DNA from: Acetivibrio cellulolyticus CD2
GTDB taxonomy: Bacteria; Bacillota; Clostridia; Acetivibrionales; Acetivibrionaceae
Assembly (NCBI RefSeq): GCF_000179595.2
Contig: NZ_JH556659.1
Location: forward strand, 857,905-921,904
Reading direction: 5' to 3'
DNA length: 64,000 nt
The notes beneath the pieces were generated by a model. That model was given only the letters and a program-made list of their open reading frames with translations, was not told the origin of the DNA and did not search any database. This document shows, in pieces, positions 232 through 18,383 of the stretch. Numbering within the stretch: the stretch's first letter is position 1; each line of letters opens with the position of its first letter. The position numbers and the translations under genes are program-made.

Positions 232-252
232 AAGTAGATATGTTAAATTTTT

Positions 253-312: not shown

Positions 313-327
313 TTTCAAGCACCGATT

Positions 328-483
328 ACAAAAGTGAGTATAGCAAATGCAAAAAAAAATAAATCCAATTTCATAGAAGGAATGGATTGCAAAGGTGGAT
401 GTATTGGGGGAGCATTTTGTATAACTTCAGCAGACAGAGCAAAGAAGAACTTAAATATGAACGGAGAGATGAAAAATGTGTGA
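328..483 (+). pseudogene. Relic of an [FeFe]-hydrogenase C-terminus (L3 motif)
   Basis: The open frame through 292-483 reads FIEGMDCKGGCIGGAF followed by TSADRAKKNLN. This matches the L3 region of [FeFe]-hydrogenases, where two Cys in CxGGC bind the H-cluster; compare FIEALACQGGCLGG in the complete homologue at 23078-24418. Nothing resembling the rest of the enzyme (ferredoxin clusters, L1, L2) precedes it, and no good start or ribosome site is present. I read it as the tail of a deleted hydrogenase or hydrogenase-like gene. The spacing of the two Cys and the following Gly residues is intact. Confidence 0.6.
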
Positions 484-611
484 AGTAGATGTGTATCTTA
501 TTTCTTACCCATTTGAATTTATCTGAAAAAATTCTGTTAATTTTATAGAACAGCTGAAGTCTTAGCTGTCTAAATAAAAATATATTTAACTTATTAGGAG
601 GCTTTAAAAAA

Positions 612-2243: not shown

Positions 2244-2256
2244 AGGAGCATAATTT

Positions 2257-4115: not shown

Positions 4116-4130
4116 AAGGGGGCGTTTACA

Positions 4131-5045
4131 TTGCTTACAGTTAAGGATCTTTCCATTTCCTTTACACAATATGAAAAAGGTATGAGACAAAAAAACATGA
4201 GGGTTATCTCAAATCTTAATATAACAATAAAACCTGGTAAAATACTTGCCATAGTTGGTTCAAGCGGTTCGGGAAAGAGCCTTCTTGCTCATGCCATACT
4301 TGGAATTTTACCTCAAAATGCAAAAGTTACAGGTTCAATAAAATATAAGGGTGAGGAACTTACACAAAAGCTGCAAAATAAGCTGAGGGGAAATGAAATC
4401 ACATTGATTCCTCAATCGGTAAATTATCTTGACCCACTTATGAAGGTTGGTGCTCAAGTTCGTAGTTCAAGGGATAAGGATGCTTTGGAAAAACAGAGCA
4501 GTGTCTTTAATAGGTACTCTCTTCACAGCAAAGTCGGAAGCCTTTTTCCGTTTCAGCTTTCAGGCGGTATGGCAAGACGTGTACTTGTAGCTTCAGCAGT
4601 AGTTGGCGGAGCAAAGCTCATTATTGCAGATGAACCTACACCAGGACTTCATCCCGATGTAGTAAAAGAGACACTTGGGCATCTACGTGAACTGGCTGAT
4701 GAAGGCTGCGGGGTTATGCTTATTACCCATGATATAGGCACTGCTGTTAATGTTGCCGATGATATTGCTGTTTTTTACGCAGGTACCACAATAGAGGTTG
4801 CTCCTGTAAGTAATTTTACTGAAAAAGGTGAACTATTGCGTCATCCATATACAAAGGCTCTCTGGAATGCTTTGCCTCAGAATGAATTTACAGCAATAAC
4901 AGGCTTCCAGCCATCTCATAGTAAAATCCATGGAGGATGCCTTTTCCATCCTAGGTGTACAACAAAAAGCCAGGAATGTATGGAAAAGCAGCCTGAAATG
5001 AGAGAACTGCGCAATGGAAGAGTGAGGTGTAATCATGCTACTTAA
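4131..5045 (+). CDS. ABC transporter ATPase, DppD/NikD type
   Basis: 304 aa. Walker A GSSGSGKS, Q-loop PQS, signature LSGGMARR, Walker B LIIADEP and the H-loop ITHD occur in order, so it should hydrolyse ATP. The Cys-containing C-terminal extension (GCLFHPRCTTKSQEC) is the oligopeptide/dipeptide-type C-terminal domain, which in related importers carries an iron-sulfur site. Translation starts at TTG 4131, which has GAAGGGGGCG just upstream. The end overlaps the next ATPase gene by 11 bases, so the two ATPases are likely made in step and form a heterodimer. Confidence 0.92.
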   Translation: MLTVKDLSISFTQYEKGMRQKNMRVISNLNITIKPGKILAIVGSSGSGKSLLAHAILGILPQNAKVTGSIKYKGEELTQKLQNKLRGNEITLIPQSVNYLDPLMKVGAQVRSSRDKDALEKQSSVFNRYSLHSKVGSLFPFQLSGGMARRVLVASAVVGGAKLIIADEPTPGLHPDVVKETLGHLRELADEGCGVMLITHDIGTAVNVADDIAVFYAGTTIEVAPVSNFTEKGELLRHPYTKALWNALPQNEFTAITGFQPSHSKIHGGCLFHPRCTTKSQECMEKQPEMRELRNGRVRCNHAT

Positions 5046-5640
5046 TGCAAAAAATATTTGCTTCAGATATGGAAAAGGTTTATGGATACTGAAGGGTTTT
5101 AACCTACAGCTAAAGTCTGGTGAGGTTGTTGGTTTATCAGGTCCTAGTGGCTGCGGCAAAACTTCTCTTTCAAGAATACTTTCGGGGTATATGTCTCCTG
5201 ATGAAGGCAGCGTGACCTTGGATGGAGAACCTTTACCAAGGAAAGGTTTTAGCCCTGTACAACTTGTTTTTCAGCATCCTGAAAAGGCAATCAACCCTAG
5301 ATGGCAGATGTATAAAACATTAAACGAAGGCTGGTCACCCGACGGAGAGCTTTTGGAATCCTTGGGGATAGAGGAGAACTGGTTTAAAAGATGGCCAAAC
5401 GAGCTTTCAGGTGGTGAACTGCAAAGGTTCTGTGTAGCTCGTGCCCTAAGCACTGATACAAGATTTCTGATTGCAGACGAAATGACCACGATGCTTGATG
5501 CCATTACCCAAGCACAAATATGGAAGGTGGTTTTGGATACAGCAAAAAGAAATAATATGGGAGTGCTTGTAGTAAGCCATGAAGAGCATTTGATTAATCG
5601 GTTGTGTGATAGAGTAGTTAAGATGGATACTTGTTTATAA
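5035..5640 (+). CDS. ABC transporter ATPase, DppF/NikE type, short form
   Basis: 201 aa. Walker A GPSGCGKTS, Q-loop FQHPEKAINPRW, signature LSGGELQRF, Walker B FLIADEMTTMLD and the H-loop VVSHEEH are all present. Unlike its partner it lacks the C-terminal peptide-transporter domain, and it is shorter than typical DppF (about 320 aa). The DEMTTMLDA wording, in place of DEPTSALD, recurs in short ATPases of nickel/metallophore-type importers as far as I recall. It is the last gene of the five-gene ABC operon. The start is inside the end of the preceding gene. Confidence 0.9.
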   Translation: MLLNAKNICFRYGKGLWILKGFNLQLKSGEVVGLSGPSGCGKTSLSRILSGYMSPDEGSVTLDGEPLPRKGFSPVQLVFQHPEKAINPRWQMYKTLNEGWSPDGELLESLGIEENWFKRWPNELSGGELQRFCVARALSTDTRFLIADEMTTMLDAITQAQIWKVVLDTAKRNNMGVLVVSHEEHLINRLCDRVVKMDTCL

Positions 5641-5699
5641 TATACTTTTTTAATACTGGTAAAGATTAGTGTGAATAAACCAATTAAAAGGAGCTTTGT

Positions 5700-6743
5700 A
5701 TGGGAAAAAGATATCTAATTACCGGAGGGGCAGGCTTTTTGGGGATCAATCTTATAAGATTTTTACTAAAAAAGGGTTGTTCAGTAATTTCTCTGGATAC
5801 GGCAGACTTTGAATATGATGATGTTAAAAACGATATCAGAATTATCAAGGGTGACATCAGGGATAGAAAAATTGTTGATAAGTCAATGGAACAGATAGAT
5901 ATTGTTGTTCATACTGCTGCCGCATTGCCATTATATAAAAAAGAAGATATTTTCTCCACGGATATCGATGGCACAAGAAATATAGTTGATTCAGCATTTA
6001 ATCATGGAGTGGAAAGGGTAATTCACATTTCTTCAACAGCTGTTTATGGGATTCCTGACCATCATCCGTTAATGGAAAACGATAGACTTGATGGGGTTGG
6101 GTATTATGGTGAAGCAAAGATAAAGGCGGAAGAAGTATGCCAGGAATATAGGAAAAAAGGGATGTGCATTCCGGTATTGCGCCCAAAATCTTTTATAGGG
6201 CCGGAAAGGCTTGGTGTTTTTGCTCTCTTCTATGATTGGGCAAAGGACGGAAAGGGTTTTCCAATGATAGGAAACGGAAGAAACCGCTATCAGTTTCTCG
6301 ATGTTGAGGATTTATGTGAAGCAATCTATCTTGCTGCTGAAGGAGATAAGGATAAGGTAAATGATACTTTTAATATTGGTGCTAAAGAATTTACTACCAT
6401 GAGAGAAGATTATCAAGCAGTACTTGACTATGCTGGCTTTGGTAAAAAAATTAAAGGCTTTCCAGCAAAACCAATGATACTTACACTAAGATTTCTGGAG
6501 TTTTTAAAGTTGTCTCCACTATATAAATGGGTATATGAGACAGCCTGCGAAGATTCATTCGTTTCTATAGAAAAAGCTGAAAAAATTCTTGGATACAAAC
6601 CGAAATATTCAAATAAGGATGCCTTGTTGCGAAACTATAAATGGTATTTGGAAAATCTCGCGGAATTCGAGAACAAAACTGGAATTTCCCATAGAGTACC
6701 ATGGAAGCAAGGTGTGCTTAAGCTGGTTAAGGTCTTCTTTTAA
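5700..6743 (+). CDS. NAD-dependent epimerase/dehydratase (extended SDR)
   Basis: 347 aa. The N-terminus has the nucleotide-binding motif GGAGFLG, an acidic residue follows the second strand (LDTADFEYDD), and the catalytic YxxxK appears as YYGEAKIKAEE near residue 139. A Ser/Thr (SSTAVYG) lies upstream, as expected for the triad. Such enzymes modify NDP-sugars or act on related polyols; the product here is not identifiable. AAAGGAG precedes the ATG. It is separated from the ABC operon by 59 bases and could be co-transcribed with it; no terminator is visible between them. Confidence 0.85.
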   Translation: MGKRYLITGGAGFLGINLIRFLLKKGCSVISLDTADFEYDDVKNDIRIIKGDIRDRKIVDKSMEQIDIVVHTAAALPLYKKEDIFSTDIDGTRNIVDSAFNHGVERVIHISSTAVYGIPDHHPLMENDRLDGVGYYGEAKIKAEEVCQEYRKKGMCIPVLRPKSFIGPERLGVFALFYDWAKDGKGFPMIGNGRNRYQFLDVEDLCEAIYLAAEGDKDKVNDTFNIGAKEFTTMREDYQAVLDYAGFGKKIKGFPAKPMILTLRFLEFLKLSPLYKWVYETACEDSFVSIEKAEKILGYKPKYSNKDALLRNYKWYLENLAEFENKTGISHRVPWKQGVLKLVKVFF

Positions 6744-6802
6744 GCAGAAAGTTGTATATGTTTATAACACAGGACACAGGACTATATTGTATTGGAAAAA
6801 CT

Positions 6803-6842
6803 CATTGACTAATAATTATGGTTTATGTTATATTAGTCAATG
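6803..6842 (+). promoter_or_regulatory. Palindromic operator with 16-nt spacer over a promoter (NikR-like layout)
   Basis: CATTGACTAATA (6803-6814) and TATTAGTCAATG (6831-6842) are perfect 12-nt inverted arms separated by 16 nt. The left arm holds a -35 (TTGACT, 6805-6810) and the right arm holds the -10 (TTATAT, 6828-6833) at 17-nt spacing, so a protein bound here would block RNA polymerase. Two half-sites separated by N16 is the geometry known for NikR in enterobacteria; the bases differ, so NikR is an inference from layout and from the metal permease downstream. Confidence 0.5.
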
Positions 6843-6852
6843 ATATGAAATG

Positions 6853-6951
6853 AAGCCACGAAGGCTTTTTAAACTAATTTTACTTTTTAACTTTGGGATG
6901 AACCCAAAAAAGTAGCTATGGGTAGTAGCTCTTTTTTGGGCTTTTATATTT
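6853..6951 (+). promoter_or_regulatory. Structured leader with mutually exclusive hairpins (attenuator candidate)
   Basis: After a small hairpin (AAGCC/GGCTT, 6853-6867), TTTGGG (6892-6897) can pair with CCCAAA (6903-6908). The same CCCAAA begins a longer hairpin: CCCAAAAAAG (6903-6912) pairs perfectly with CTTTTTTGGG (6931-6940), with AGCT/AGCT (6914-6917, 6927-6930) inside, followed by CTTTTATATTTTT. The long hairpin resembles an intrinsic terminator placed just before the ribosome site of the permease gene. I do not recognise a cobalamin or NiCo riboswitch core. Confidence 0.5.
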
Positions 6952-6967
6952 TTAAGGAGGGATTTAC

Positions 6968-8026
6968 ATGCATATGGCTGATGCCTTGATTTCACCTGCC
7001 GTAGGTGGAATTATGATGGCAGCAACTGTTGGTGTTGCTGCTTACTCAATAAAAAAAATAAAGAATGATCTGGATGAAAAGAAAATTCCATTAATGGGAG
7101 TAATGGGAGCATTTATATTTGCATCTCAGATGATAAACTTTTCTATACCTGGAACAGGTTCAAGCGGTCATCTTGGGGGAGGTATGCTTCTTGCAATATT
7201 GCTTGGCCCATATGAAGGGTTTCTTGCTATGGCATCAATATTATTAATTCAGGCATTGTTTTTTGGAGACGGAGGATTACTTGCTTATGGCTGTAATGTT
7301 TTTAATTTAGGCTTTTATACTTGCTTTATTGCGTATCCTTTTATTTATAAATTTTTTACAAGAAAAGGAGTTAATCCTAAGCGAATTTTTGGGGCATCAA
7401 TGATATCAGCAGTGATTGGACTTCAAATGGGTGCATTTAGTGTTGTAATGGAGACATTTTTGTCTGGAAAAACAGAATTACCTTTTGGAACTTTTGTTCT
7501 GCTTATGCAGCCTATTCACTTGGCAATTGGAGTGGTTGAGGGCTTAGTAACAGCAGCAGTTGTTACTTTTGTATGGAAGGCAAGACCTGAAATATTAGAA
7601 AGATCAGCTAGTGGAGAGGCACTTGGCAATATATCTATGAAGAAAGTTTTGACTGGGCTTTTAGTTGCTGTTATAGTAGTTGGTGGAGTTTTTTCGTGGT
7701 TTGCATCAGCAAATCCAGATGGTCTGGAATGGTCTATGTTTAGGACTGCTGGAAAAGAAGAACTTGAAGAGCCAAATGGAATCCATAAAACATTATCTGA
7801 AATACAGAGTAAGACAGCATTTTTACCGGATTACGGTTTTAAAGGAAATGAGAGCGAAAATGCAGAAGAACCTGCCAACAAAGAAACTGAAGAAGTTTGG
7901 CCTGCTGTTAGTGCCGGAACAAGTGTTTCAGGTGTTGTTGGAGGTGTATTGACACTTACATTGGCGACAATCACTGGGCTGATTATTGGTATGGTCAAAA
8001 AAATGAAAAGAAGAAAAATTGCTTAA
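6968..8026 (+). CDS. cbiM: CbiM/NikM-type metal permease with C-terminal NikN/CbiN-like segment
   Basis: 352 aa membrane protein of the energy-coupling-factor type cobalt/nickel importers. It begins MHMADALISPAVGG; the N-terminal Met-His of this family is part of the metal site. About seven helices follow, with the conserved GSSGHLGGGMLLAILLGP. The C-terminal third (ANPDGLEWSMFRTAG, then a final helix) resembles the small CbiN/NikN component, so this is a fused M-N form. No cbiQ (transmembrane) or cbiO (ATPase) gene follows; an integrase and mobile debris do. CbiMN without QO is known to retain some transport in related systems. AAGGAGG at 6954-6960 fixes the start. Confidence 0.85.
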   Translation: MHMADALISPAVGGIMMAATVGVAAYSIKKIKNDLDEKKIPLMGVMGAFIFASQMINFSIPGTGSSGHLGGGMLLAILLGPYEGFLAMASILLIQALFFGDGGLLAYGCNVFNLGFYTCFIAYPFIYKFFTRKGVNPKRIFGASMISAVIGLQMGAFSVVMETFLSGKTELPFGTFVLLMQPIHLAIGVVEGLVTAAVVTFVWKARPEILERSASGEALGNISMKKVLTGLLVAVIVVGGVFSWFASANPDGLEWSMFRTAGKEELEEPNGIHKTLSEIQSKTAFLPDYGFKGNESENAEEPANKETEEVWPAVSAGTSVSGVVGGVLTLTLATITGLIIGMVKKMKRRKIA

Positions 8027-8174
8027 TCAAAGCACTTGCTAATGATTATCAAGAGCAAATAATTTCTGAGGAATTATTTGGTCAACTCAGATGATTCTTA
8101 AAAGAGAAGCTCAAAGCATAATAATAAAGTAGTAAGACGTGCTCGAACATGTAAACTATATACACATAACTTTG

Positions 8175-8218
8175 AAGCCCCTATAATTAAAGTATAGTAA
8201 TTATGAAAGGGGCTTTTT
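8175..8218 (+). terminator. Terminator hairpin that also contains the integrase ribosome site
   Basis: AAGCCCCT (8175-8182) pairs with AGGGGCTT (8208-8215), followed by TTT. It can end the permease transcript. The right arm contains AAAGGGG, the only ribosome-binding sequence for the integrase that starts at TTG 8222, so folding would hide that site. Confidence 0.6.
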
Positions 8219-8221
8219 GCT

Positions 8222-9223
8222 TTGAAAAACACAAATGTTAAAATTAGTTTAAGGGATAGTTTCGAATTATTTCTGGATAGGTGCGAAAGAGAAAATTTGT
8301 CACCTTCAACTATTAAGTTCTACGAAGACAACATGAAACGCTTTATTAAGTATCTATCTATTGAGCATAATTTACAAAATCCTTTAATACCCGATTTTAA
8401 CTCTGTGCATATTAACAAATACCTTGCTAAAATTAAGAAGAGTAAAAAATGGAATGGACACACGCATATAAAAGCAAGAGAAGAAAAGGTGGGAAGCCAA
8501 TCGATAAAAACCTATGCAAGAGCACTAAGGGCTATTGGTAATTGGTTTTTCACAGAAGATTATATATCTGAAAATATAATTGAAACTGTAGATTTGCCAA
8601 AGGCAGCAAAATCTGACAAAGAAGTTCTTTGCGATGATGAGATTAAAGCTATTATCACTAAATTTGATACAAAAACAAAATTAGGACTTAGGAATTCTAT
8701 TATCTTTCTACTTGCGTTTGATGCAGGTATTAGGCAGGGAGGGATTGCAAACTTAAAAATTGGAGATGTGGACCTAAAAGCAAAAACTTTACGTGTACGA
8801 CTAAAAGGAGGCAACATTACTGTGCTGCCTTTGGGTAATACTGTTCTGTGGCAGATAAAAGAGTATATTGTAAAATACAGAGGAATAGATAATCTGAATG
8901 AGCCGCTTTTAACTAATATTAATGGCTCAAAACTTACCGAAAATGCAATAAAGAAAATGTTTTCAAAGTTAAAAAAGAAATCTGGTGTAATAAGGGTCAA
9001 CTGCCATCTTGGCAGACATACCTTTGCTACAAATTATATTAGCGAAGGTCATACTCAACAAGAATTACAGCTTGCACTAGCACATGAATCCGATACAATG
9101 TCAAAGGAATATGTTCACTTGGACGAAAAAATCAACTATGTTCGCAGGGGTGCAGATTCACATATGGATAAAATGCTTAATGATTCAAAAAGTACTAAAA
9201 GGACTGCTGCTAATTTCCGATAG
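8222..9223 (+). CDS. Tyrosine recombinase / phage-type integrase
   Basis: 333 aa. An N-terminal SAM-like core-binding domain (residues about 8-125) is followed by the catalytic domain. The catalytic residues can be followed: Arg in AGIRQGGIANL, Lys in RLKGGN, HxxR in HLGRHTFAT, the second His in LALAHES and the nucleophile Tyr in KEYVHLD. It should therefore be active. Translation starts at TTG 8222 with AAAGGGG upstream inside a hairpin. The tRNA-Lys 3'-half repeat lies 305 bases downstream, the usual arrangement of an integrase beside its attachment site. A broken, roughly 90 percent identical piece of a sister integrase lies at 14926-15060. Confidence 0.92.
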   Translation: MKNTNVKISLRDSFELFLDRCERENLSPSTIKFYEDNMKRFIKYLSIEHNLQNPLIPDFNSVHINKYLAKIKKSKKWNGHTHIKAREEKVGSQSIKTYARALRAIGNWFFTEDYISENIIETVDLPKAAKSDKEVLCDDEIKAIITKFDTKTKLGLRNSIIFLLAFDAGIRQGGIANLKIGDVDLKAKTLRVRLKGGNITVLPLGNTVLWQIKEYIVKYRGIDNLNEPLLTNINGSKLTENAIKKMFSKLKKKSGVIRVNCHLGRHTFATNYISEGHTQQELQLALAHESDTMSKEYVHLDEKINYVRRGADSHMDKMLNDSKSTKRTAANFR

Positions 9224-9527
9224 GAGTGCCTTTACTTGTTCAGTTTTTAATTTATGTATTTATGCATATGATATATTGTGGTTGATTAATGAACTATTCT
9301 ATTGGAGTTCTCCATAAGGAATAGTTTTTTTAGTAGATGGGGATGAAAGGTTTTATACAATATAGAAAAGAGATAAGAGTACTATTGCAATTATAGAAAA
9401 AAAGATGTTAAAATTAACATAACATGAGTAAGATATCAGACACCATGATTTTCAGGTAGGGTTCAAAAGACACCATGACTTCCAAGAAAATTCAAAAGCA
9501 GTCTCAAAGCCTTGCAGATCATGGCTG
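9224..9527. other. Non-coding stretch with a repeated 11-mer (insertion-sequence end?)
   Basis: No gene is seen. AGACACCATGA occurs at 9438-9448 and again at 9468-9478, and each is followed about 20 nt later by TTCAAAA. Short repeated motifs like this occur at the ends of some IS families, but no transposase is present here. Confidence 0.35.
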
Positions 9528-9622
9528 GGTTACGGGTTTTAATACGTCAAAAAAGTGCAAAAATAAGCACTATGACTTTTAATCAAGGTGTCCCGCGTTC
9601 GAGTCGCGGATGGCTCACCAAA
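9528..9622 (+). repeat. 95-bp direct repeat, left copy, containing the 3' half of tRNA-Lys(UUU)
   Basis: By my reading it is identical to 13624-13718. From 9566 to 9620 it reads as a tRNA-Lys from the end of the D-arm: the anticodon loop CTTTTAA (anticodon TTT), variable loop, T-arm CGCGTTCGAGTCGCG and GGCTCACCA. The 5' half of the tRNA (GAGCCAT acceptor strand, D-loop) is absent and the anticodon stem has a mismatch, so it is not a functional tRNA. A 3' tRNA fragment next to an integrase is the signature of an attachment site. Confidence 0.8.
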
Positions 9623-9623
9623 G

Positions 9624-9655
9624 TACCTGTAACCGTAAGGTTGCAGGTATTTTTA
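9624..9655 (+). terminator. Terminator after the left tRNA-Lys fragment
   Basis: TACCTG-T-AACC (9624-9634) pairs with GGTT-G-CAGGTA (9639-9649), followed by TTTTTAT. It probably descends from the terminator of the original tRNA gene. The equivalent hairpin is missing after the right copy, although the bases beyond it remain similar. Confidence 0.7.
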
Positions 9656-9758
9656 TGTGTGTAGAAGTAGATATTGTGATTTGAATTGAAATGCAATGCA
9701 AGTTAAATTATTAATATTAAATTAAAGTAAAGACATGTTAAAAATATGTAAATACACG

Positions 9759-9788
9759 TTGTGTACTTGTGGCTTTTTTTGATATGAT
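9759..9788 (+). promoter_or_regulatory. Possible promoter for the HTH/KilA-N pair
   Basis: TTGTGT (9759-9764), an 18-nt spacer and TATGAT (9783-9788) lie about 45 bases before the HTH start. The -35 overlaps ACACGTTGTGT, a near-palindrome that could be an operator for the small HTH protein itself. Weak evidence. Confidence 0.35.
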
Positions 9789-9832
9789 TTACACATAGTA
9801 TAATTGCCGACAGATTTGATGTGGGGATAAAT

Positions 9833-10054
9833 ATGGAAGCGACAGAATGTCAACAGAGAATAAAGGAACTTCGAGAGCAGACAGGTATGAATCGCAAGGA
9901 ATTTTGTGAAGCATTTGATATTCCTTATAGAACAGTGACAGAGTGGGAACGAGGTAATAGGAATGCTCCAAGATATGTTTTAAGATTTTTGGAATACTAT
10001 ATTCGCATGGAGAAGAAGATTGAGGAAAAGGTGAAGTCAGATGGCGAAAAATAG
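9833..10054 (+). CDS. Small XRE-type helix-turn-helix protein
   Basis: 73 aa beginning at ATG 9833, which has GTGGGGAT at a normal distance; an upstream in-frame GTG at 9821 overlaps that ribosome site and is less likely. The sequence RIKELREQTGMNRKEFCEAFDIPYRTVTEWERGNR is a compact helix-turn-helix, with recognition helix around YRTVTEWE. It overlaps the KilA-N gene by 14 bases, so the two are translated together. It probably represses its own promoter or acts with the KilA-N protein. DNA binding is inferred from the fold only. Confidence 0.8.
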   Translation: MEATECQQRIKELREQTGMNRKEFCEAFDIPYRTVTEWERGNRNAPRYVLRFLEYYIRMEKKIEEKVKSDGEK

Positions 10055-10886
10055 AATTATTACAGTCCAAGATATACCAATTACAATATCGCAGGCAGAT
10101 TTAGATGATTATATTTGTATTACAGATATGGCAGCAGCAAAGTTAGATAATTCCAGAGCGGCGGATGTCGTTAGAAACTGGCTCAGAAACAGGACAACAC
10201 TCGAATTTTTATCAACTTGGGAAGGAATTTATAATCCGAATTTTAAAGTGTTCGAATCTGAACACTTTAAAAAGCAAGCGGGACTTTTGACATTTACACC
10301 AAGTGTATCGGAGTGGGTTGAACAAACCAATGCAATAGGTTTGTTTGCGAAGAAAGGCCGATATGGAGGCACTTTTGCACATAAAGATATAGCATTTGAA
10401 TTTGCATCGGCGATTAGTCCTGTGTTCAAATTATACTTGATTAAAGAATTTCAGCGTTTAAAGGAAGAAGAAAATAACCTTCAAAAGATAGAATGGGATG
10501 CAAAGAGATTTTTATCAAAAAATAATTATATGATACAGACAGATGCTGTAAAGAATTATATATTACCAAATTGTAATTATCGTGAGGATCTTAAATGGCT
10601 TCCATATGTTGAGGAGGCAGATTTATTGAATGTAGCATTGTTTGGCTTTACCGCTAAGGCATGGAGAGAGGCCAACCCAGAACTTGCTAGGACAAGTAAT
10701 GTTAGGGATTATGCAACGATTAACGAGTTAACAGTATTATCCAACTTGGAAACACATAATGCACAGATGATTCGTGAGGGAAAGACAAAAGAAGAAAGAT
10801 TCGAGGTGCTTAAGGATATAGCAGAATATCAGATTGGTATACTAAATGCAGCTGAAAGCATTGGTGTTAATTTATTGGAAAAATAA
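10041..10886 (+). CDS. KilA-N domain protein, copy 1
   Basis: 281 aa. The N-terminal half has the KilA-N pattern: YICITDMAAAKLDNSRAADVVRNWLRN, then WVEQTNAIGLFAKKGRYGGTFAHKDIAFEFASAISPVFKLYLIKEF spread over residues about 92-137. KilA-N is a DNA-binding domain common in phages and mobile elements. The C-terminal half (YVEEADLLNVALFGFTAKAWREANP) recurs in the second copy at 14009-14854, which has exactly the same length. It is coupled to the HTH gene and sits directly after the left tRNA-Lys repeat. Its role (element maintenance, regulation or defence) is unknown. Confidence 0.85.
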   Translation: MAKNRIITVQDIPITISQADLDDYICITDMAAAKLDNSRAADVVRNWLRNRTTLEFLSTWEGIYNPNFKVFESEHFKKQAGLLTFTPSVSEWVEQTNAIGLFAKKGRYGGTFAHKDIAFEFASAISPVFKLYLIKEFQRLKEEENNLQKIEWDAKRFLSKNNYMIQTDAVKNYILPNCNYREDLKWLPYVEEADLLNVALFGFTAKAWREANPELARTSNVRDYATINELTVLSNLETHNAQMIREGKTKEERFEVLKDIAEYQIGILNAAESIGVNLLEK

Positions 10887-10904
10887 TAAAAACTGAAATA
10901 CTTC

Positions 10905-11085
10905 AAAATGGAAAAGTGGAGTACGGAACACAGACAGTTGAAAGGCTGAGGATATAGTGTAAGAAATTTGTTCAATATGATAAAGTTTTATGAAGATTTT
11001 AATAACACGTTAGTTTTGCACACAGTGTGTGCTTTAAGCCGGAACAACTTGTTAATAAATGAGATATTACTATTTACTTAAGAAT
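10905..11085 (+). pseudogene. Possible DUF1016/YhcG nuclease remnant
   Basis: Reading across two frames gives KVEYGTQTVERL, then SVRNLFNMIKFYEDF, reminiscent of the YhcG/DUF1016 stretch with EYG, ELS and an RNL..F.Y segment. Several stops interrupt it. The rest of the 10887-11355 gap shows no gene I can support. This assignment is tentative. Confidence 0.25.
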
Positions 11086-11355
11086 CAAAAATAAACCTAT
11101 AATAAAGCTATAGATTCTGCATACCCCAATAAATTTAAGTAATGGGAATTTAGATCTACACCGAATACCTATTGGAATGAAGATACTGCAATTCTAGCGA
11201 CAAAATGGCTGAAATGGAGTATAAAGAATTATATGGTTCTACATATAATATTGAAGAATCTCAATTCCTAATCATATCCACATATTCTTTAGATTCTGTT
11301 TCATCAGGACAACCTTCTTCAACCCAATTTTTCCTTTTTTTATGAAGATGAAAAT

Positions 11356-11634
11356 ATGGAAACAGGTATGAAACTTTTGGGAAGTGATAAAGGAGGCAAT
11401 CTATACTTTTGGATTATTGAGCCTAAAGGAACTGGTACTAAAGACTTTGTTGTTAAAGTGAATATTGAAGATAATACCATATCTATAATGAAGATTGATG
11501 ATATGAATTGGACAATGCAAAATTCGTCAGCAAATAGCAGCAATAGATTCTTAAGAATTGATAGACTTGGTAATGTAAATCAACTTGAAATGGATTATGA
11601 TGGATTCAGAATTAAAAAATATTCATTCGAATAA
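11356..11634 (+). CDS. Small protein of unknown function
   Basis: 92 aa (METGMKLLGSDKGGNLYFW at the start). I do not recognise it. It has no signal peptide or membrane segment, is rich in Asn, Asp and Lys, and alternates short hydrophobic strands as beta proteins do. No ribosome site precedes the ATG and the frame stays open for a few codons upstream (YEDEN), so it may be the C-terminal part of a broken gene. The RCC1-repeat lipoprotein starts 119 bases later, and the shared propeller-like wording could mean they were once functionally linked. Confidence 0.4.
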   Translation: METGMKLLGSDKGGNLYFWIIEPKGTGTKDFVVKVNIEDNTISIMKIDDMNWTMQNSSANSSNRFLRIDRLGNVNQLEMDYDGFRIKKYSFE

Positions 11635-11753
11635 TTAAATTAAATTTTAATAGAATAGTGGTAAAATAATACAAAGGAGTATAAGATTGTATTAATACAT
11701 TATTAATAATAGTAAGTTTTTGGTTGTTAAGATATTTAAGTGAGGAGTGGACT

Positions 11754-12857
11754 ATGAGAAAAGTACATGGATTTGTCATGTTTTTAGTTATATTTACTTT
11801 TTTGTGTTCTTCATGTTCAAGTAATAAACTTAATATAGTATCAGTTTTCTGTGCAGATCAATCAACTTATTTGATTGATAAAGGTGGCAAGGTAATAACT
11901 TTTGATCAAAGTTTGAATGGAAATGCAGGTGATATAAATAGACCCGGTTTTATTAATGATTTAAATGGGATTAAATCTATCGCAGCTTCAAAAACAAGCG
12001 TTCTTGCTTTAAAAGGAAATGGATCGGTATTTGTGTGGGGCAGTAACTATAATGGTATTTATGGCAGTTTAAGTATTAAAGAGTCACAAAAGCCTGTTAA
12101 GATTGAAAGTCTTAAAGATATAACCAATGTATCAATAAACGAAAGCCAAGCTCTAGCGGTTGATAAAGAAGGGAATTTATATAATTGGGGAGTTGGCATT
12201 GAAGAAATAACAAAAAGAACTGAGTTGAAAAATGTAAAAAAGGCTGTTTGTGGAGGATGGCATTATTTAGCATTACTTGATAATGGAGATGTTTATGTTT
12301 GGGGAACAAATCCAGCTGGGCAATTTGGTAATGGAAAATATTCGTCTGAAGAAACTTCTAAACCTCAAAAAATAGATTCGCTTAAAGATATTGTGGATAT
12401 AGATGCTTCAACTGAGCATAGTATAGCTTTAGATAAAAGTGGAAATGTGTATACTTGGGGTGGAAATTCTGAAGATCAGTTAGGATATGCAACCCAAATA
12501 GAGTATTCAAACGAAATAAAAAAGGTTTCTGGCTTGAGTTCAATAAAAAAGGTTTATGCTGGACCATCTAACTCTTATGCTTTAGATTCTGACGGTACAT
12601 TATGGGCTTGGGGAAATAATATAAGAGGGCAAATAGGTATAGGCAGTGAAAGTAGTGAAGTAAAATTACCAGTTAAAGTAGAAATTGAAGAAGTTAAGGA
12701 CTTTTCTTGTGGTTTTGAGCACTGTATAGCAGTAAAAAAAGATGGATCAGTTTGGGCATGGGGAGATATAAAATATTCAAAAATAAGTATCGATGCTAAA
12801 GGAAGAGAATTTATATCAAAACCAGAGAAAGTTGATCTGGATAATTTAATTAAATAG
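11754..12857 (+). CDS. RCC1-repeat (beta-propeller) exported protein, probable lipoprotein
   Basis: 367 aa from ATG 11754, which has GAGGAG 8 bases before it; an upstream in-frame start at 11724 lacks one. The N-terminus has a signal sequence (RKVHGFVMFLVIFTFLCSSC) with a Cys that could be lipidated, although the lipobox is not canonical. At least six RCC1-type repeats follow, each ending in a VWGSN/YTWGGN/AWGNN motif: VFVWGSNYNG, VYVWGTNPAGQFGNG, VYTWGGNSEDQLG, LWAWGNNIRGQIGIG. RCC1 repeats fold into a seven-bladed propeller and serve binding functions. The partner is unknown. It lies inside the tRNA-Lys repeat-bounded element. Confidence 0.8.
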   Translation: MRKVHGFVMFLVIFTFLCSSCSSNKLNIVSVFCADQSTYLIDKGGKVITFDQSLNGNAGDINRPGFINDLNGIKSIAASKTSVLALKGNGSVFVWGSNYNGIYGSLSIKESQKPVKIESLKDITNVSINESQALAVDKEGNLYNWGVGIEEITKRTELKNVKKAVCGGWHYLALLDNGDVYVWGTNPAGQFGNGKYSSEETSKPQKIDSLKDIVDIDASTEHSIALDKSGNVYTWGGNSEDQLGYATQIEYSNEIKKVSGLSSIKKVYAGPSNSYALDSDGTLWAWGNNIRGQIGIGSESSEVKLPVKVEIEEVKDFSCGFEHCIAVKKDGSVWAWGDIKYSKISIDAKGREFISKPEKVDLDNLIK

Positions 12858-13158
12858 ATGCTTCAGGAGAAAATATTAAAGTCACCAATAATAAGAAATT
12901 AACCATTGAAAAACTTATAGCGTATTATAGCAGAAACAACAGAACTCCCGCTTGTAATTATCCAAAAACTTGCAGAAGAACTTGAAAATTAGAATTTAAT
13001 AATGGATATTTTTTCATGATTACGCCTAATAAAACAGCTCTTTCTATGGTGGTAACACCCAATTGGGTTATTTTCTTTTACAGCAGCTGTATAAACTACC
13101 AGATCGCATTGTGAAATAATTATCTTAACTGTTTTGTTTCATTGATATATTTTTTTAG
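12858..13158. other. Gap with short coding scraps only
   Basis: Apart from a short open run ending LVIIQKLAEELEN (to about 12990) and a palindrome CCCAATTGGG near 13059-13068 followed by TTATTTTCTTTT, I see nothing I can name. The palindrome with its T-run might be a weak terminator. Confidence 0.3.
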
Positions 13159-13586
13159 AAACTGTCAGCATATTCAAGTCCGACATTTTTTAAAGTATAT
13201 CTGGCCGATGTTGGGCTTTTGAGAAGAATGTCGAAGCTTCCGGCTTCATCTATTTTTGAAGAAACTCATCTTTATACAGAATTCAAAGGGGCTATGACTG
13301 AGAACTATGTATTGAATGAACTTGTAAATTTGCATGGAGATATGCCGTATTATTGGAAATCAGGGAATACAGCAGAAGTTGATTTTATATTGCTCAATTT
13401 GAGGAAAAGATTGTGCCGATAGAGGTAAAAGCTTCTATCAATGTTAAATCCCGCAGTCTTGGAGTATATCGGGACAAATACAAGCCAAAGGTTTCGGTCA
13501 GGGCGTCCCTTCTTAATCTTAAAGTGGATGAAGAATTGTTGAATGTACCGTTGTACATGTTTTGGAATGTTGAAAAGCTAATTTGA
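13159..13586 (+). pseudogene. DUF4143/AAA ATPase C-terminal remnant with a frameshift
   Basis: The first frame reads SPTFFKVYLADVGLLRRM, then GAMTENYVLNELV and PYYWKSGNTAEVDFIL. After a one-base shift near 13395 the homology continues in another frame as FEEKIVPIEVKAS, ending VPLYMFWNVEKLI. These are the hallmarks of the C-terminal DUF4143 (nuclease-like) part of ATP-binding proteins common in anaerobes. The ATPase N-terminal half (Walker motifs) is absent, a TAG stands immediately upstream, and the shift breaks the frame, so it is a dead gene. It is the last item before the right tRNA-Lys repeat. Confidence 0.75.
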
Positions 13587-13623
13587 GTGATAGGAAAAAC
13601 TTTAGTGATTAATTATTGGGCGT

Positions 13624-13718
13624 GGTTACGGGTTTTAATACGTCAAAAAAGTGCAAAAATAAGCACTATGACTTTTAATCAAGGTGTCCCGCGTTCGAGT
13701 CGCGGATGGCTCACCAAA
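13624..13718 (+). repeat. 95-bp direct repeat, right copy, containing the 3' half of tRNA-Lys(UUU)
   Basis: Identical by eye to 9528-9622, including 39 bases of non-tRNA sequence before the tRNA part (13662-13716). The copies are 4,096 bases apart. The bases that follow (ATTTTTATATGTGCGTTGAAG) also resemble those after the left copy once its terminator hairpin is skipped, so the true repeat is longer than 95 bp and has a deletion. Confidence 0.8.
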
Positions 13719-14008
13719 TTTTTATATGTGCGTTGAAGTTGATACTATACTAGCCTAAATTCCCATTATATTAAATTTGAATACCTTTTGGCAGAATAAC
13801 TTTTTATAATATCAATATCAAGTAAAAAATATGGTATACTTTGAAATATGGATTGTTTACCAATGAAATGGAAATAAAACCTCAAAAGAACACTTGTTCT
13901 CATATCGAATGTTTGATATAATATTGGTATCGATTCGATTTGCAGATGTTAATATTATAATTACTCGCTGTAGTTATGAGGATTCGCAAGTATGGGAGGT
14001 TCTGTGAA
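13719..14008. other. Leader of the second KilA-N gene
   Basis: AT-rich DNA without a gene. ATATCGAATGTTTGATAT (13903-13920) is an imperfect palindrome, and ATCGATTCGAT (13931-13941) is another; either could be an operator. GGGAGG at 13993-13998 is the ribosome site for the gene at 14009. Confidence 0.3.
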
Positions 14009-14854
14009 ATGACAAAGAAACCTGTTAAAGAAACAATTCAGGCAAAAGGTATAGATATTACAATCTATACTGAAGACTTTCAAAATGAGTTTATTTCGCT
14101 TACTGATATTGCAAGATATAAGAGTGATGAACCTAAGGATGTAGTTAAGAACTGGATGAGAAGTAAAGATACTATTGAGTTTTTAGGTCTATGGGAGAAA
14201 CTACATAATGACAAATTTAAAGGGGTCGAATTCGACTCCTTTAGAAATCAAGCTGGATCAAATGCTTTTACACTATCACCACAAAAATGGATAGAAAAGA
14301 CGAATGCAATTGGTCTTGTTTCAAAATCGGGACGTTATGGCGGTACATTTGCTCACTCTGATATCGCTTTTGAATTTGCATCATGGATATCAGCTGAGTT
14401 TAAGCTCTATATTATTAAGGATTATAAAAGATTAAAGAGCGATGAAAGTAGCAGATTTTCTTTAGGTTGGAATTTGAATAGAGAAATTTCCAAATTGAAC
14501 TATAGAATTCATACTGATGCTATAAAGGAAAAATTACTACCACCGGAATTGATGCCATTTCAGATTTCTATGACATATGCCAGTGAAGCAGATGTGTTGA
14601 ATGTTGCTTTGTTCGGAATTACGGCTAAGCAGTGGAGAGAGAAGAATTCTGATAAAGGAGGAAATATTAGAGATTATTCTACGCTAAACCAATTGCTGGT
14701 TTTAGCCAACATGGAGAGTTATAATTCCATATTAATAGAACAAGGTAAACAACAATCAGAAAGGCTTAAATTGCTGAATCAATTAGCCATTCGTCAGTTG
14801 AAAGCAATTCAGGAGCTTGATACGGATACAATAAAAAAACTTGAAGGCAAATAG
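14009..14854 (+). CDS. KilA-N domain protein, copy 2
   Basis: 281 aa from ATG 14009, supported by GGGAGG 10 bases upstream; an earlier in-frame ATG at 13976 has no ribosome site. It parallels copy 1 along its whole length: FISLTDIARYKSDEPKDVVKNWMRS, WIEKTNAIGLVSKSGRYGGTFAH, FEFASWISAEFKLYIIKDYKRLK (spread over residues about 115-137) and SEADVLNVALFGITAKQWRE. Unlike copy 1 it has no HTH gene in front. Like copy 1 it follows a tRNA-Lys repeat. It is divergent enough from copy 1 to be a separate arrival rather than a recent duplicate. Confidence 0.85.
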   Translation: MTKKPVKETIQAKGIDITIYTEDFQNEFISLTDIARYKSDEPKDVVKNWMRSKDTIEFLGLWEKLHNDKFKGVEFDSFRNQAGSNAFTLSPQKWIEKTNAIGLVSKSGRYGGTFAHSDIAFEFASWISAEFKLYIIKDYKRLKSDESSRFSLGWNLNREISKLNYRIHTDAIKEKLLPPELMPFQISMTYASEADVLNVALFGITAKQWREKNSDKGGNIRDYSTLNQLLVLANMESYNSILIEQGKQQSERLKLLNQLAIRQLKAIQELDTDTIKKLEGK

Positions 14855-14925
14855 AAATTGCGTTTAAAAAAATACATAGACATGAATTTATTACTGTGGT
14901 AAATTTCACGAGGAATATAAAGTCA

Positions 14926-15060
14926 ATATGCAAGAGCAATAAGAGCTATTGGTAATTGGTTTTTCACAGAAGAGTATATATCTGAAAATATAATTGAAAC
15001 TGTTGTTTTGCCCAAGGCATCACAAGCAGACAAAGAAGTTCTTTGTGATGATGAGATTAC
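14926..15060 (+). pseudogene. Fragment of a second tyrosine integrase
   Basis: About 134 bases match 8513-8645 of the intact integrase at roughly nine bases in ten by eye, covering the segment RAIGNWFFTEDYISENIIETV to the end of the core-binding domain. No catalytic domain follows. It shows that a second, related element was once present beside the second KilA-N gene. The remaining sequence to 15191 holds nothing I recognise. Confidence 0.8.
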
Positions 15061-15191: not shown

Positions 15192-15662
15192 ATGGATGAA
15201 GTATCTAAATTTCATACTGTTCGCGGTTACCAGCTGCTTGAGCAAAACAAAAAGCTTTTAACCTCAGCAATGGAAGACTATCTGGAGATGATATACAGGA
15301 ACAGCCTTGTAGAAGGTTATATGCGCATAAATACACTTTCTGAGCTCTTAAATGTTGCAGCATCATCAGCCACAAAAATGGTTCAAAAGCTAAGTGCATT
15401 AGGACTGCTTAACTATAAAAAATATGGAATTATACTTTTAACCGAAGATGGTAAGGAAGTTGGGAAATTCCTTTTGCAACGGCATCATGTTATTGAGTCG
15501 TTCTTGAAAAGTTTGGGAGTCTGTGAAGATGTCTTAACAGAAACAGAGCTGATTGAACATACTGTATCAGCTTCAACACTACAAAAGATCAACACCTTTA
15601 ATAAGTTCCTTGAGCAAAATCCTGATATTTTCGAAAAATATGAGCAGTTTTCTAAAGAATAA
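15192..15662 (+). CDS. mntR: MntR/DtxR-family metal-dependent repressor
   Basis: 156 aa. The N-terminal winged helix contains RINTLSELLNVAASSATKMVQKLSALGLL (residues about 38-66). The residues that bind Mn2+ in Bacillus MntR can be matched: Asp and Glu in AMEDYLEMIY, His in QRHHVIESF, and Glu, Glu and His in ETELIEHT. All appear conserved, so metal binding is likely. It stands directly upstream of the NRAMP transporter gene and most likely controls it. A terminator at 15684 separates the two, so they are separate transcripts. An iron-responsive role cannot be excluded. Confidence 0.85.
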   Translation: MDEVSKFHTVRGYQLLEQNKKLLTSAMEDYLEMIYRNSLVEGYMRINTLSELLNVAASSATKMVQKLSALGLLNYKKYGIILLTEDGKEVGKFLLQRHHVIESFLKSLGVCEDVLTETELIEHTVSASTLQKINTFNKFLEQNPDIFEKYEQFSKE

Positions 15663-15683
15663 ATTTCATAAATTCTCACTTAT

Positions 15684-15706
15684 AGGAACTTGACGGGTTC
15701 CTTTTT
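15684..15706 (+). terminator. Terminator after the mntR-like gene
   Basis: AGGAAC (15684-15689) pairs with GTTCCT (15697-15702), followed by TTTTC. Confidence 0.7.
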
Positions 15707-15805
15707 CATTTCTGCAATTCCTGTCGTTATTTGATTTCAAAAATGCTGTTATGTAAATGTAACACATTCTATTTATTACTCATATTGTAGATTAAGTAAA
15801 CAAAA

Positions 15806-15848
15806 TTAGACTGGACTAAAGTAATTAGTCGCCCAAAATCTTTGGGGC
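15806..15848 (+). promoter_or_regulatory. Candidate operator and leader hairpin before mntH
   Basis: TTAGACTGGACTAA (15807-15820 region) overlaps a perfect inverted repeat GACTAA (15814-15819) / TTAGTC (15825-15830). Immediately after, GCCCAAA can pair with TTTGGGGC (to 15848). The TTAG...CTAA pattern is the style of DtxR-family sites, fitting control by the MntR-like product. The half-site GACTAA/TTAGTC also occurs in the palindrome at 6803-6842. Confidence 0.4.
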
Positions 15849-15885
15849 AATTAAAGTAAACAAGTGTGCAAGAGAGGTGCTTAAG

Positions 15886-17193
15886 GTGCTTGAAGAAAGC
15901 TATGCTCAAACAGTTGAATCCCAAGGGGAACAATTAATAGTGGGAAGGGTTGCAACTAGAAGCAGTGGAAAGTTTATAAGTAAAGTTAAAACATTACTTA
16001 AGTTTCTTGGCCCAGCTTTTATTGTTAGTGTTGCATATATTGATCCTGGAAATTTTGCAACAAACATTAGTGGGGGATCAAAATTTAATTATAATCTGAT
16101 CTGGGTTATACTTTGGAGTAATCTTATGGCTATTTTCCTGCAATCCATGTCAGCAAAACTTGGAATAGCAACTGGTCAAAACCTCCCTCAGATGTGCAGT
16201 AAGGTATTTTCAAAAAGAACCAACTGGTGCTTCTGGGTGGTTGCTGAGCTGGCAGCGATGGCAACTGATTTGGCAGAATTTCTTGGCGGCACTTTGGGAT
16301 TTTACTTATTGTTCCGCATTCCTATGGTATATGCTGCCTTGATAACTGCAATTCTAACCTTTTTTATTGTTTACATAGGCAAATATGGTCAACGTATTGT
16401 AGAGGTTATCATTTCAATTCTTGTAGCAGTTATTTGTATATCCTATACTATGGAGTTGTTTTTAGCCAAGCCCGATTTTACATTAGCAGGTCTTCATCTT
16501 TTAGTTCCATCGCTGCCAAATGGCAATGCAATACTAATTGCAGTTGGTATGCTTGGCGCAACAGTTATGCCGCATGTAATCTATTTACATTCTCAGCTTG
16601 TACAGCATAGAAACAAAGATTTAACAGAGCAAGATAAGATAAAGCATTTGAAAATGGAGAGGATAGATATAACAATTGCGATGAATATAGCATTTATTGT
16701 CAATGCAGCAATGGTTATTGTATCAGCAGCTGTTTTTTTTCGAAACGGAATAGCTGTAGACTCAATTGAGCAGGCACATCAGTCTTTGTCGCCTTTATTG
16801 GGTGCAGCATCAAGCGGTGCTTTCGGGTTGGCCCTCATCGCATCCGGCCTTTCTTCATCAGCAGTAGGAACTATGGCAGGACAGACTATAATGCAGGGTT
16901 TTGTCGGACTCAATATAAATGATAATGTAACCAGGCTCGTAACCATGTTTCCCGGGATGCTTATCATTGCACTAGGCATCAATCCAATGCAAGCACTTGT
17001 TTTAAGCCAGGTTACATTAAGCTTTGTTCTTCCTGTTGCCATCATTCCAATGTTGCTTATTACCAGACGTAAAGATCTTATGGGATCATTGGTAAATAAA
17101 CCTTTAACAAATATGATAGGGTGGCTGATAACAAGTATAATAATAGCTGCAAATGTGGTCTTACTGTTATTTACATTTACAGGGCAAGTATAG
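15886..17193 (+). CDS. mntH: NRAMP-family Mn2+/Fe2+ transporter MntH
   Basis: 435 aa, about eleven membrane helices. The metal-binding helix 1 motif DPGNFATN is present (VAYIDPGNFATNISGGS), and helix 6 carries the matching AT..PH motif (GATVMPHVIYLHS), so transport of Mn2+ or Fe2+ with protons is expected. GTG 15886 is the likelier start because GAGAGG (15872-15877) lies at the right distance; a GTG at 15877 overlaps it. It is regulated, by inference, by the MntR-like protein encoded just upstream. Confidence 0.93.
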   Translation: MLEESYAQTVESQGEQLIVGRVATRSSGKFISKVKTLLKFLGPAFIVSVAYIDPGNFATNISGGSKFNYNLIWVILWSNLMAIFLQSMSAKLGIATGQNLPQMCSKVFSKRTNWCFWVVAELAAMATDLAEFLGGTLGFYLLFRIPMVYAALITAILTFFIVYIGKYGQRIVEVIISILVAVICISYTMELFLAKPDFTLAGLHLLVPSLPNGNAILIAVGMLGATVMPHVIYLHSQLVQHRNKDLTEQDKIKHLKMERIDITIAMNIAFIVNAAMVIVSAAVFFRNGIAVDSIEQAHQSLSPLLGAASSGAFGLALIASGLSSSAVGTMAGQTIMQGFVGLNINDNVTRLVTMFPGMLIIALGINPMQALVLSQVTLSFVLPVAIIPMLLITRRKDLMGSLVNKPLTNMIGWLITSIIIAANVVLLLFTFTGQV

Positions 17194-17369
17194 CAGCATG
17201 ATTTGAAAATCGCTAATGAACTTCCTTTTGATAAGGACAACTTGGATTGCTATAGAATAAAAATAATAAGATATTTTTGGTAAAGTATTTTTAAACTACA
17301 AAGTATATGATATATTACAGGATGGGACAAAACTTTACTTTGTACTTAATTATAAAGGTGGTAAGAATT

Positions 17370-18383
17370 TTGAAAAGTGAAAAGATAGAACTGGATGAGT
17401 GGAAACGTTTATATGAGGCAGCTGTCAGGTTTAAAGAGACCGAATGCTGGAACTGGATAGCTGATATTGATATTTTTGGAGTAGAGAATATAGATACACA
17501 TGAGATAGGGTATTGCTGTGTTATGGGTAATGCTGGTCAGGTATTTGGAATAAGTATTTATGTTGGAGATGACGGATTAAAGTCTTATATGGACACTTTG
17601 TATCCTAATGTTCCTTTTGATGATTTGGGATATATACAAAATTGTATAACAATGTATTTTGAGGATAGAGAGAGTCTAAATAGAGAAGATTTAAATATAA
17701 TTAAGCAGTTAGGGCTGAAATTTAGGGGGAAGAAACAGTGGCCTCAATTTAGAAATTATAAGCCAAATTACTTTCCATCCCAGATTAGCAAAAGTGAAGT
17801 CAAATATATGGCTTATGCATTAGAACAGATTGTAAATGTCGCTTTAAGATGCAGGGAAGACGAAGAATTGCTAAAACCTGAAGACGAAAATAAAATTCTG
17901 GTAAGGGCCTCCAGGGTTGAAAATAAAAAAGTGTTATGGGAAGATAAGTATATAAACCTTGACCTGGAAGAAAACAATAATGAATATGAAAAAGTTAATG
18001 AAATTGCACTTAAAAGGATTAAAGATAATAGGCTTAGAAAAACCGGAGTATGGGAAGTTGACTTTTTTAATGCGCCTGCTATGGTTAAAGAAAGCGGGAG
18101 ACCTTTTTACCCGTTGATGTTCATGATTGCTGAAGCTGAAAGTGGAGTAATGCTGGATATGAAAATGACTTCTGATTTTGAGGGGTATATTGGAGAATTC
18201 CGTGATGAATTTATTGACCTGCTAGCAAGGAATAAGCAGATACCAGAGGTTATTGTTGTCCAGAGGAAAAAGGCATTTCAAATGCTTGAGCCTATATCGT
18301 TAAAACTTGGCATAGAATTGCAGACTGTTGAGGAATTGTATAGTATTCAGGAATTTAGAAAAGGATTGGAACAATTTCTCTAA
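17370..18383 (+). CDS. Conserved protein of unknown function (DUF7309/DUF6930-like)
   Basis: 337 aa from TTG 17370, which has AAGGTGG 8 bases before it; an upstream ATG at 17307 is in frame but lacks a ribosome site. No signal peptide or membrane segment is visible. The N-terminal half (residues about 10-150) contains CCVMGNAGQVFGISIYVGDDG; the C-terminal half has WEVDFFNAPAMVKESGRPFYPLM and a final block PEVIVVQRKKAFQMLEP. The two-part plan resembles DUF7309 plus DUF6930 proteins of Firmicutes as I recall them. No function is known to me, and neighbours give no clue. Confidence 0.75.
   Translation: MKSEKIELDEWKRLYEAAVRFKETECWNWIADIDIFGVENIDTHEIGYCCVMGNAGQVFGISIYVGDDGLKSYMDTLYPNVPFDDLGYIQNCITMYFEDRESLNREDLNIIKQLGLKFRGKKQWPQFRNYKPNYFPSQISKSEVKYMAYALEQIVNVALRCREDEELLKPEDENKILVRASRVENKKVLWEDKYINLDLEENNNEYEKVNEIALKRIKDNRLRKTGVWEVDFFNAPAMVKESGRPFYPLMFMIAEAESGVMLDMKMTSDFEGYIGEFRDEFIDLLARNKQIPEVIVVQRKKAFQMLEPISLKLGIELQTVEELYSIQEFRKGLEQFL

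Follow-up and report, generated by a model that had tools for sequence, protein, structure and literature searches.

Why should the same half of a tRNA gene stand on either side of a 4-kb piece of bacterial chromosome? The question is raised by a stretch of 64,000 nucleotides from Acetivibrio cellulolyticus CD2 (assembly GCF_000179595.2, contig NZ_JH556659.1, C9:857905-921904; hereafter the window), in which two 95-bp repeats carrying the 3' half of tRNA-Lys(UUU) flank such a segment. We consider it very probable that these repeats are attachment (att) sites of the attR type, belonging to a family of integrative elements that insert by means of a tyrosine recombinase into the anticodon loop of tRNA-Lys(UUU), and that the resulting array arose by serial accretion.

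Sequence comparison bore out the initial annotation of the repeats themselves. Window positions 9528-9622 and 13624-13718 are identical at 95 of 95 nt, with pairwise identity ending exactly at both borders, and the final 56 nt run from the anticodon stem and loop of tRNA-Lys(UUU) to its 3' CCA. The length of the identity excludes a chance origin, and ARAGORN called no tRNA at either window copy. The 39 bases ahead of the tRNA part had been described as identical and foreign to the tRNA; they are identical, but their last bases (AGCACT-A) echo the tRNA with one inserted base. The proposed search of the whole genome (6.16 Mb, 10 contigs) recovered exactly three full exact copies of the 95-mer, at C9:856982, 867432 and 871528, all on the same strand of one contig and within 15 kb, together with two intact tRNA-Lys genes. 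The second and third copies are those at window 9528 (att2) and 13624 (att3); the first, att1, lies outside the window, its 95-mer ending 828 bp to the left. One intact tRNA-Lys(UUU) gene, the last of a His-Gln-Lys tRNA cluster, is found at C9:846212-846287, another 10.7 kb upstream of att1 and in the same orientation as the repeats. The other is on contig C5 and lacks the 39-nt prefix. Beyond the three 95-mers, the only matches in the genome at E <= 0.001 were the 3' halves of these two genes. The attachment-site pattern suggested by the initial annotation is thus supported by three copies arrayed downstream of an intact tRNA-Lys, and both of its proposals, a full tRNA-Lys elsewhere or fragments that travel with the element, fit an intact gene upstream and fragments resembling displaced 3' ends.

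The numerous unrelated copies that had been named as the sign of an ordinary dispersed repeat did not appear: exactly three exist, all of them in the array downstream of tRNA-Lys. In 57 other genomes of the order, a search at E <= 0.001 turned up no match to the prefix, and a related integrase is accompanied by the same layout (see below). Nothing was found in favor of a dispersed repeat, or of a chance duplication unrelated to integration; copy number and position refute this idea, which we regard as scarcely credible. A functional RNA encoded by the 95-mer was also considered and rejected (fold z-score -1.25, with 25 of 200 shuffles equally good, and no tRNA call).

From left to right the array consists of tRNA-Lys / E1 / att1 / E2 / att2 / E3 / att3 / decayed E4, with core-to-core unit sizes of 10,787 bp (E1), 10,450 bp (E2) and 4,096 bp (E3). 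Its features, in window coordinates, are as follows.

1-9575, + strand: right part of unit E2; its left border (the att1 core) is 875 bp left of the window, and its short-chain dehydrogenase gene is mostly left of the window
612-5640, + strand: E2 ABC transporter genes, peptide/nickel-type
5700-6743, + strand: E2 epimerase
6968-8026, + strand: E2 CbiM-PDGLE
8222-9223, + strand: E2 tyrosine recombinase of 333 aa with core-binding and catalytic domains, the sole intact one found in the array
9439-9450, + strand: arm-like repeat GACACCATGATT, an inverted near-copy of the core half-site
9469-9480, + strand: second arm-like repeat, GACACCATGACT, 30 bp from the first
9528-9622, + strand: att2, made up of the 39-nt element right end and the 56-nt tRNA-Lys 3' half
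9576-9582, + strand: putative 7-bp crossover region CTTTTAA in the anticodon loop
9623-9654, + strand: terminator-like hairpin and T run as read from the sequence, the same as after the intact tRNA-Lys and att1
9655-9682, + strand: E3 left-end block, common to E1 and more weakly to E4
9576-13671, + strand: unit E3, 4096 bp core to core, in which no integrase was found
9833-10054, + strand: HTH_3 regulator of 73 aa
10041-10886, + strand: KilA-N protein of E3, matching the PADLOC candidate PDC-S22
11757-12857, + strand: RCC1-repeat protein with a lipoprotein-like start (start placed by eye)
13163-13623, + strand: copy of the 3' end of the E1 DUF4143 gene and its flank, 99% identical and frame-shifted
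13624-13718, + strand: att3, with a putative crossover region at 13672-13678 and no terminator after it
13720-15059, + strand: E4, apparently an older, decayed unit, with the left-end block
13976-14854, + strand: E4 KilA-N gene (PDC-S22)
14861-15059, + strand: E4 scar, an E2-like upstream region joined to an integrase fragment
15192-18383, + strand: MntR-like regulator, MntH and a DUF7309/DUF6930 protein, absent from the same gap in three relatives
18562-20166, - strand: prfC (release factor RF3), the right-hand chromosomal marker

The units differ in cargo. E1 encodes MarR- and ArsR-family regulators, two ArsP_1-type permeases, ferredoxin-like and thioredoxin-like proteins, a DsbD_TM protein, an ACR3 arsenite efflux protein, a pyridine nucleotide-disulphide oxidoreductase with a rhodanese domain, and an intact AAA_14-DUF4143 gene. 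E2 carries the short-chain dehydrogenase, the five genes of the transporter, the epimerase, CbiM-PDGLE (cobalt-type uptake) and the integrase, while E3 holds the HTH, KilA-N and RCC1-repeat proteins, a 92-aa open reading frame (ORF) without a family, and the DUF4143 gene end. Two points of the initial annotation therefore need amending: the integrase just outside the left repeat is intact but belongs to the neighboring unit, and the repeats do bound the HTH/KilA-N/RCC1/DUF4143 segment, but its DUF4143 stretch is the frame-shifted copy of an E1 gene end. Beyond att3, the scar fuses two sequences of ~91-92% nucleotide identity to E2, one matching what lies upstream of its first gene and the other an integrase fragment some 49 codons long, and we read it, with the preceding KilA-N gene, as the remains of a fourth, E2-like unit.

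The same locus is shorter in relatives. From tRNA-Lys to prfC the gap measures 30.2 kb here, versus 1.25 kb in G047, 4.5 kb in G002 and 10.4 kb in G005, and the array fills most of it. In G047 the gap holds one GNAT acetyltransferase gene. As in other tRNA islands, an intact tRNA stands at one border and a displaced 3' fragment in the same orientation at the other, with an integrase inside the interval. As expected for tandem accretion, there are several units, each bounded by an att copy. The genes for MntR, MntH and the DUF7309 protein, which are missing from the gaps of all three relatives, have no att on their right side.

In the mechanism we propose, a tyrosine recombinase would insert each element into the anticodon loop of tRNA-Lys(UUU). 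The tRNA would stay intact because each element would carry in a replacement for the 3' half, accompanied in three of the four cases here by a terminator. At its other border the element would leave the 3' half that it had displaced, behind its own right-end sequence, the 39-nt prefix. A series of such insertions into one tRNA gene would then generate the array order given above. Integrases would have been lost from some units, so that an integrase-bearing unit is accreted with cis-mobilizable ones, and the E2 integrase could excise E1 and E3, singly or with E2. E1 and E3 each keep attL and attR without an integrase, the sequence hallmark of a cis-mobilizable element (CIME), and no integrase or transfer gene was named by Pfam among 11 E1 and 4 E3 proteins, a scan that mostly passed over ORFs shorter than 80 aa or overlapping. 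As the one intact integrase of the array is that of E2, we take E1 and E3 to be probable CIMEs. Among nine E2 proteins scanned with Pfam no relaxase or transfer family was named, and no search was aimed at an origin of transfer; E2 is thus not classed as an integrative and conjugative element (ICE) or an integrative and mobilizable one.

What kind of integrase does E2 encode? The core-binding match begins at residue 11 and is followed by the catalytic domain, with no arm-binding domain ahead of it. In NCBIfam the protein comes closest to the archaeal XerA model (below cut-off), the nearest solved sequences are XerC-like, XerA and XerH, and XerA also ranks first when the AlphaFold model is searched with Foldseek. 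The model (mean pLDDT 78) has a pTM of 0.56, so the placement of its domains is uncertain, but its helices start at about residue 10, leaving no room for an arm-binding domain. In a 16-sequence alignment, R171, K195, H262, R265, H288 and Y297, which we take to be the catalytic set, are invariant or nearly so. The E2 integrase is a simple, Xer-related tyrosine recombinase. Among the matches listed for phages and plasmids (the best 20 of 67 phage records and the best 20 of 586 plasmid records), only identities below 60% were seen, the best being 28%. In viral contigs, peptide patterns able to detect close relatives alone gave no confirmed integrase, and a 36-nt part of the prefix had no exact match.

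Among named relatives, the one nearest to the integrase (60% identity in its best segment) points to the right end of the element. It lies on a Clostridiaceae contig from a metagenome-assembled genome (JAAYTR010000316.1; L063), where the gene is split by an insertion, presumably IS21-like. As in E2, the integrase is followed there by two GACACCATGAYT repeats at a distance of 30 bp, a GGCTGGTTAC-like block and the tRNA-Lys 3' half. We read the 39-nt prefix as the element right end because of this shared layout. Besides the integrase's own sequence, four matches were better than 1e-33; G045 has two of these and G047 one, all three at tRNA-Lys or its 3' half, and the fourth is on a 3-kb contig without a tRNA. 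Among weaker matches, location was checked for G001 only. In G045 (two), G001 and G263, integrase relatives (~25-39% identity over the aligned parts) lie just downstream of tRNA-Lys, behind two to three GACACCWTGAYT-like copies and on the opposite side compared with E2.

The repeat motif GACACCWTGATT is the reverse complement of the tRNA-derived core half-site AATCAAGGTGTC, with one base variable. We place the crossover within CTTTTAA, in the anticodon loop, because tRNA/att identity begins there and because of the half-site layout. In the half-sites around it, 1 of 10 positions is mismatched in the G047 attR, 3 in the intact tRNAs of G047 and of A. cellulolyticus, and 7 and 3 in the G029 fragments. 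A pattern of two repeats 4-34 nt apart gave five matches at four places in 4 of 391 genomes of the class, and none with the reversed control. All four places are at tRNA-Lys or its 3' half and adjoin this type of integrase, although three (our own, G001, and G348, whose contig is L063) were known before the pattern was written, leaving G263 as the independent one. The integrase would presumably bind these arm-like repeats. A bolder idea, which we consider improbable, is that a Xer-like integrase acquired control over direction by placing extra copies of its core half-site (GACACCWTGAYT) next to attP, where they serve as arm sites, and became a shared engine for integrase-less tRNA-Lys cassettes. 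If so, it would represent a natural halfway stage between Xer-type recombinases and the arm-binding integrases of phages, somewhat like an integron platform.

E1, E3 and E4 have in common a block that follows the terminator or, at att3, which has none, CCAAA; for each pair (E1-E3, E1-E4, E3-E4) all 500 shuffles scored lower. On the strength of this block, the three units look like one family. The left end of E1 also resembles the first repeat of G001 (0/500 shuffles), which those of E3 (47/500) and E4 (499/500) do not clearly do, and between E2 and E4 nothing better than chance was found (108/500). A separate observation is that the left end of E2 diverges at the palindrome GTGTGCCC-GGT-GGGCACAC directly after the terminator (L007:1111-1129; C9:857111-857129), which is junction- or insertion-like.

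Did the units arrive one by one? The sites att1 and att2 are both followed by the same terminator, which extends their identity to 134 nt, and att1 and att3 are both preceded by the same gene end, which gives them 556 nt in common at 99%. The latter sharing points to an E3 end taken from E1 or from a common donor. Together with three identical prefixes, it would suit the arrival of E1-E3 as one assembled block, or as two, rather than by three integrations. Such a composite origin is rather unlikely, given that the units differ in their contents, that E2 has a different left end, and that every internal border is a complete att.

Several observations weigh against serial site-specific accretion as set out above. 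The half-sites of att1-3 and of L063 differ at 4 of 10 positions and are only partly symmetric; the symmetry argument thus appears good for G047 and weak for the site studied here. Past the terminator, the left end of E2 has just 10 nt in common with E1 and E3, a level that shuffled sequences also reach (123 and 207 of 500), and on this comparison it appears to have been replaced or cut. The G+C contents of E1 (0.351) and E2 (0.374) are close to those of the flanks (0.354 and 0.370), with E3 at 0.325. Relatives of the transporter, epimerase and CbiM genes of E2 are found at other places in related genomes, so this cargo need not be foreign; in G017, a span of 5.7 kb holds the transporter, pieces of CbiM and a counterpart of E2's first 120 nt. 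In G045, which has an integrase of this type at the tRNA, no prfC was met within the 9.8 kb read downstream, which counts against the shorter-locus comparison. Local alignment found no decayed tRNA 3' half between att3 and prfC, so the right boundary of the array is unmarked; over that interval and the bodies of E1-E3, alignments of the tRNA 3' half and prefix on both strands never exceeded the maximum of 100 shuffles. Finally, att1 and att3 have no adjacent arm-like repeat, and E1 and E3 may therefore be poor substrates. This last point, the two of three units without an integrase, the decay of E4, and an E3 right end that homologous exchange with E1 could have made would all suit a fossil array, in which old site-specific integrations are now immobile and att identity is kept by homologous recombination. 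Against it stand a full-length E2 integrase with all six residues named above and a prefix that is free of tRNA selection and identical in three copies. We hold a fossil state to be possible, if doubtful. In any case, it is serial insertion at tRNA-Lys that we favor.

How common is insertion at this site? The tRNA-Lys part was matched in 58 of 60 genomes searched, the source genome included. At least six 5'-truncated tRNA-Lys 3' halves were found in five other genomes (two in G029 and others in G024, G050, G023 and G047), a lower bound from chosen places that leaves out a fragment beginning at a contig end. All six start at tRNA nucleotide 26-30, and none was called as a tRNA. Because such halves recur in five other genomes, this spot is not a rare target in the order. 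The two in G029 (L088, G029:C3, 7418-7464 and 10826-10876), a different genus, lie 3.4 kb apart with similar terminators and different prefixes, making a candidate array. G002 and G001 (L048, L053) have extra tRNA-Gln-Lys pairs at sites other than the His-Gln-Lys locus, with a similar 455-aa ORF behind every pair, and the G001 contig ends 1 kb past tRNA-Lys, in integrase remnants. A whole E1 or E2 unit was not found in 14 relatives, only single genes or part clusters (at most 20 candidates scored per genome).

As for cargo, KilA-N was considered as a marker of the element family and set aside; 6 of 59 other genomes have relatives of it. The KilA-N proteins encoded in E3 and E4 match PADLOC candidate PDC-S22 (4.5e-115 and 3.7e-132) and the E1 DUF4143 protein (L006:15625-16944) matches PDC-S01 (4.8e-179). 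PDC stands for phage defence candidate (PMC11514479), and these are candidate defence genes. PHROGs placed seven proteins in integrase, regulator and RCC1-type families, some of unknown function, with one weak tail-family match inside the RCC1 repeats; Pfam named no phage structural family for the other E1 and E2 proteins. At gathering scores, Rfam found three tRNAs only in C9:840001-874000 (L006, L007), and no riboswitches.

Elsewhere in the window, a 91-nt repeat with 91% identity occurs at 39820-39910 and 43921-44011. The second copy lies in a T-box leader, upstream of what we take to be a pheS-like gene, and the first, a partial copy, is 4.1 kb upstream; a 651-aa ORF, a 174-aa ORF and a phosphatase-like ORF lie between them.

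The array accounts for a variable region beside tRNA-Lys and sets borders for units of arsenite efflux, metal uptake and candidate phage defence, and its integrase would offer a test case for the control of insertion by recombinases without an arm-binding domain. We found no published account of it in a narrow literature search aimed at tRNA-Lys islands and integrases. Tandem islands formed by accretion at tRNA genes are a well-known kind, here with a simple integrase and metal-handling cargo. Tycheposons, too, are tRNA-associated elements that combine a tyrosine recombinase with nutrient cargo. Islander-type tRNA islands likewise have a tyrosine integrase, an anticodon-centered site and a displaced tRNA 3' fragment, and because 2083 of the 3919 islands counted in PMC4383910 are anticodon-centered, the target here is ordinary. 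Islander resolves tandems only if every member has an integrase, and lists four tandems of three or more; by that rule the present array would count as one island.

The simple Xer-related recombinases described in PMC8138268 share the core-binding plus catalytic architecture and are a minority on phages (27, versus 410 with arm-binding domains) and on ICEs (12 versus 211). Unlike in those, arm-like repeats adjoin the gene here despite the lack of an arm-binding domain, and this combination with repeats that copy the core half-site is an unusual detail. In the ICE/CIME systems related to ICESt1 (PMC5704250), integrase-less attL/attR units stand beside an integrase-bearing unit, as here, and accretion with integrase loss is described, the same course as we propose. 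In contrast to these systems, no relaxase or transfer family was seen in the scanned proteins of E1-E3, and a conjugative helper is therefore not evident. The closest array we found is that of the Dehalococcoides ssrA islands (vcr-GI and relatives; PMC3146451), in which tandem islands lie downstream of a single RNA gene and each has a repeat of that gene's 3' end as its border. A conserved motif without a match in the RNA gene stands just ahead of every repeat, and some islands lack an integration module. All of these features recur here. The Dehalococcoides islands use a CcrB-like serine recombinase, the T-loop of ssrA and reductive dehalogenase cargo, whereas the A. cellulolyticus array has a tyrosine recombinase, the anticodon loop of tRNA-Lys and metal-handling cargo.

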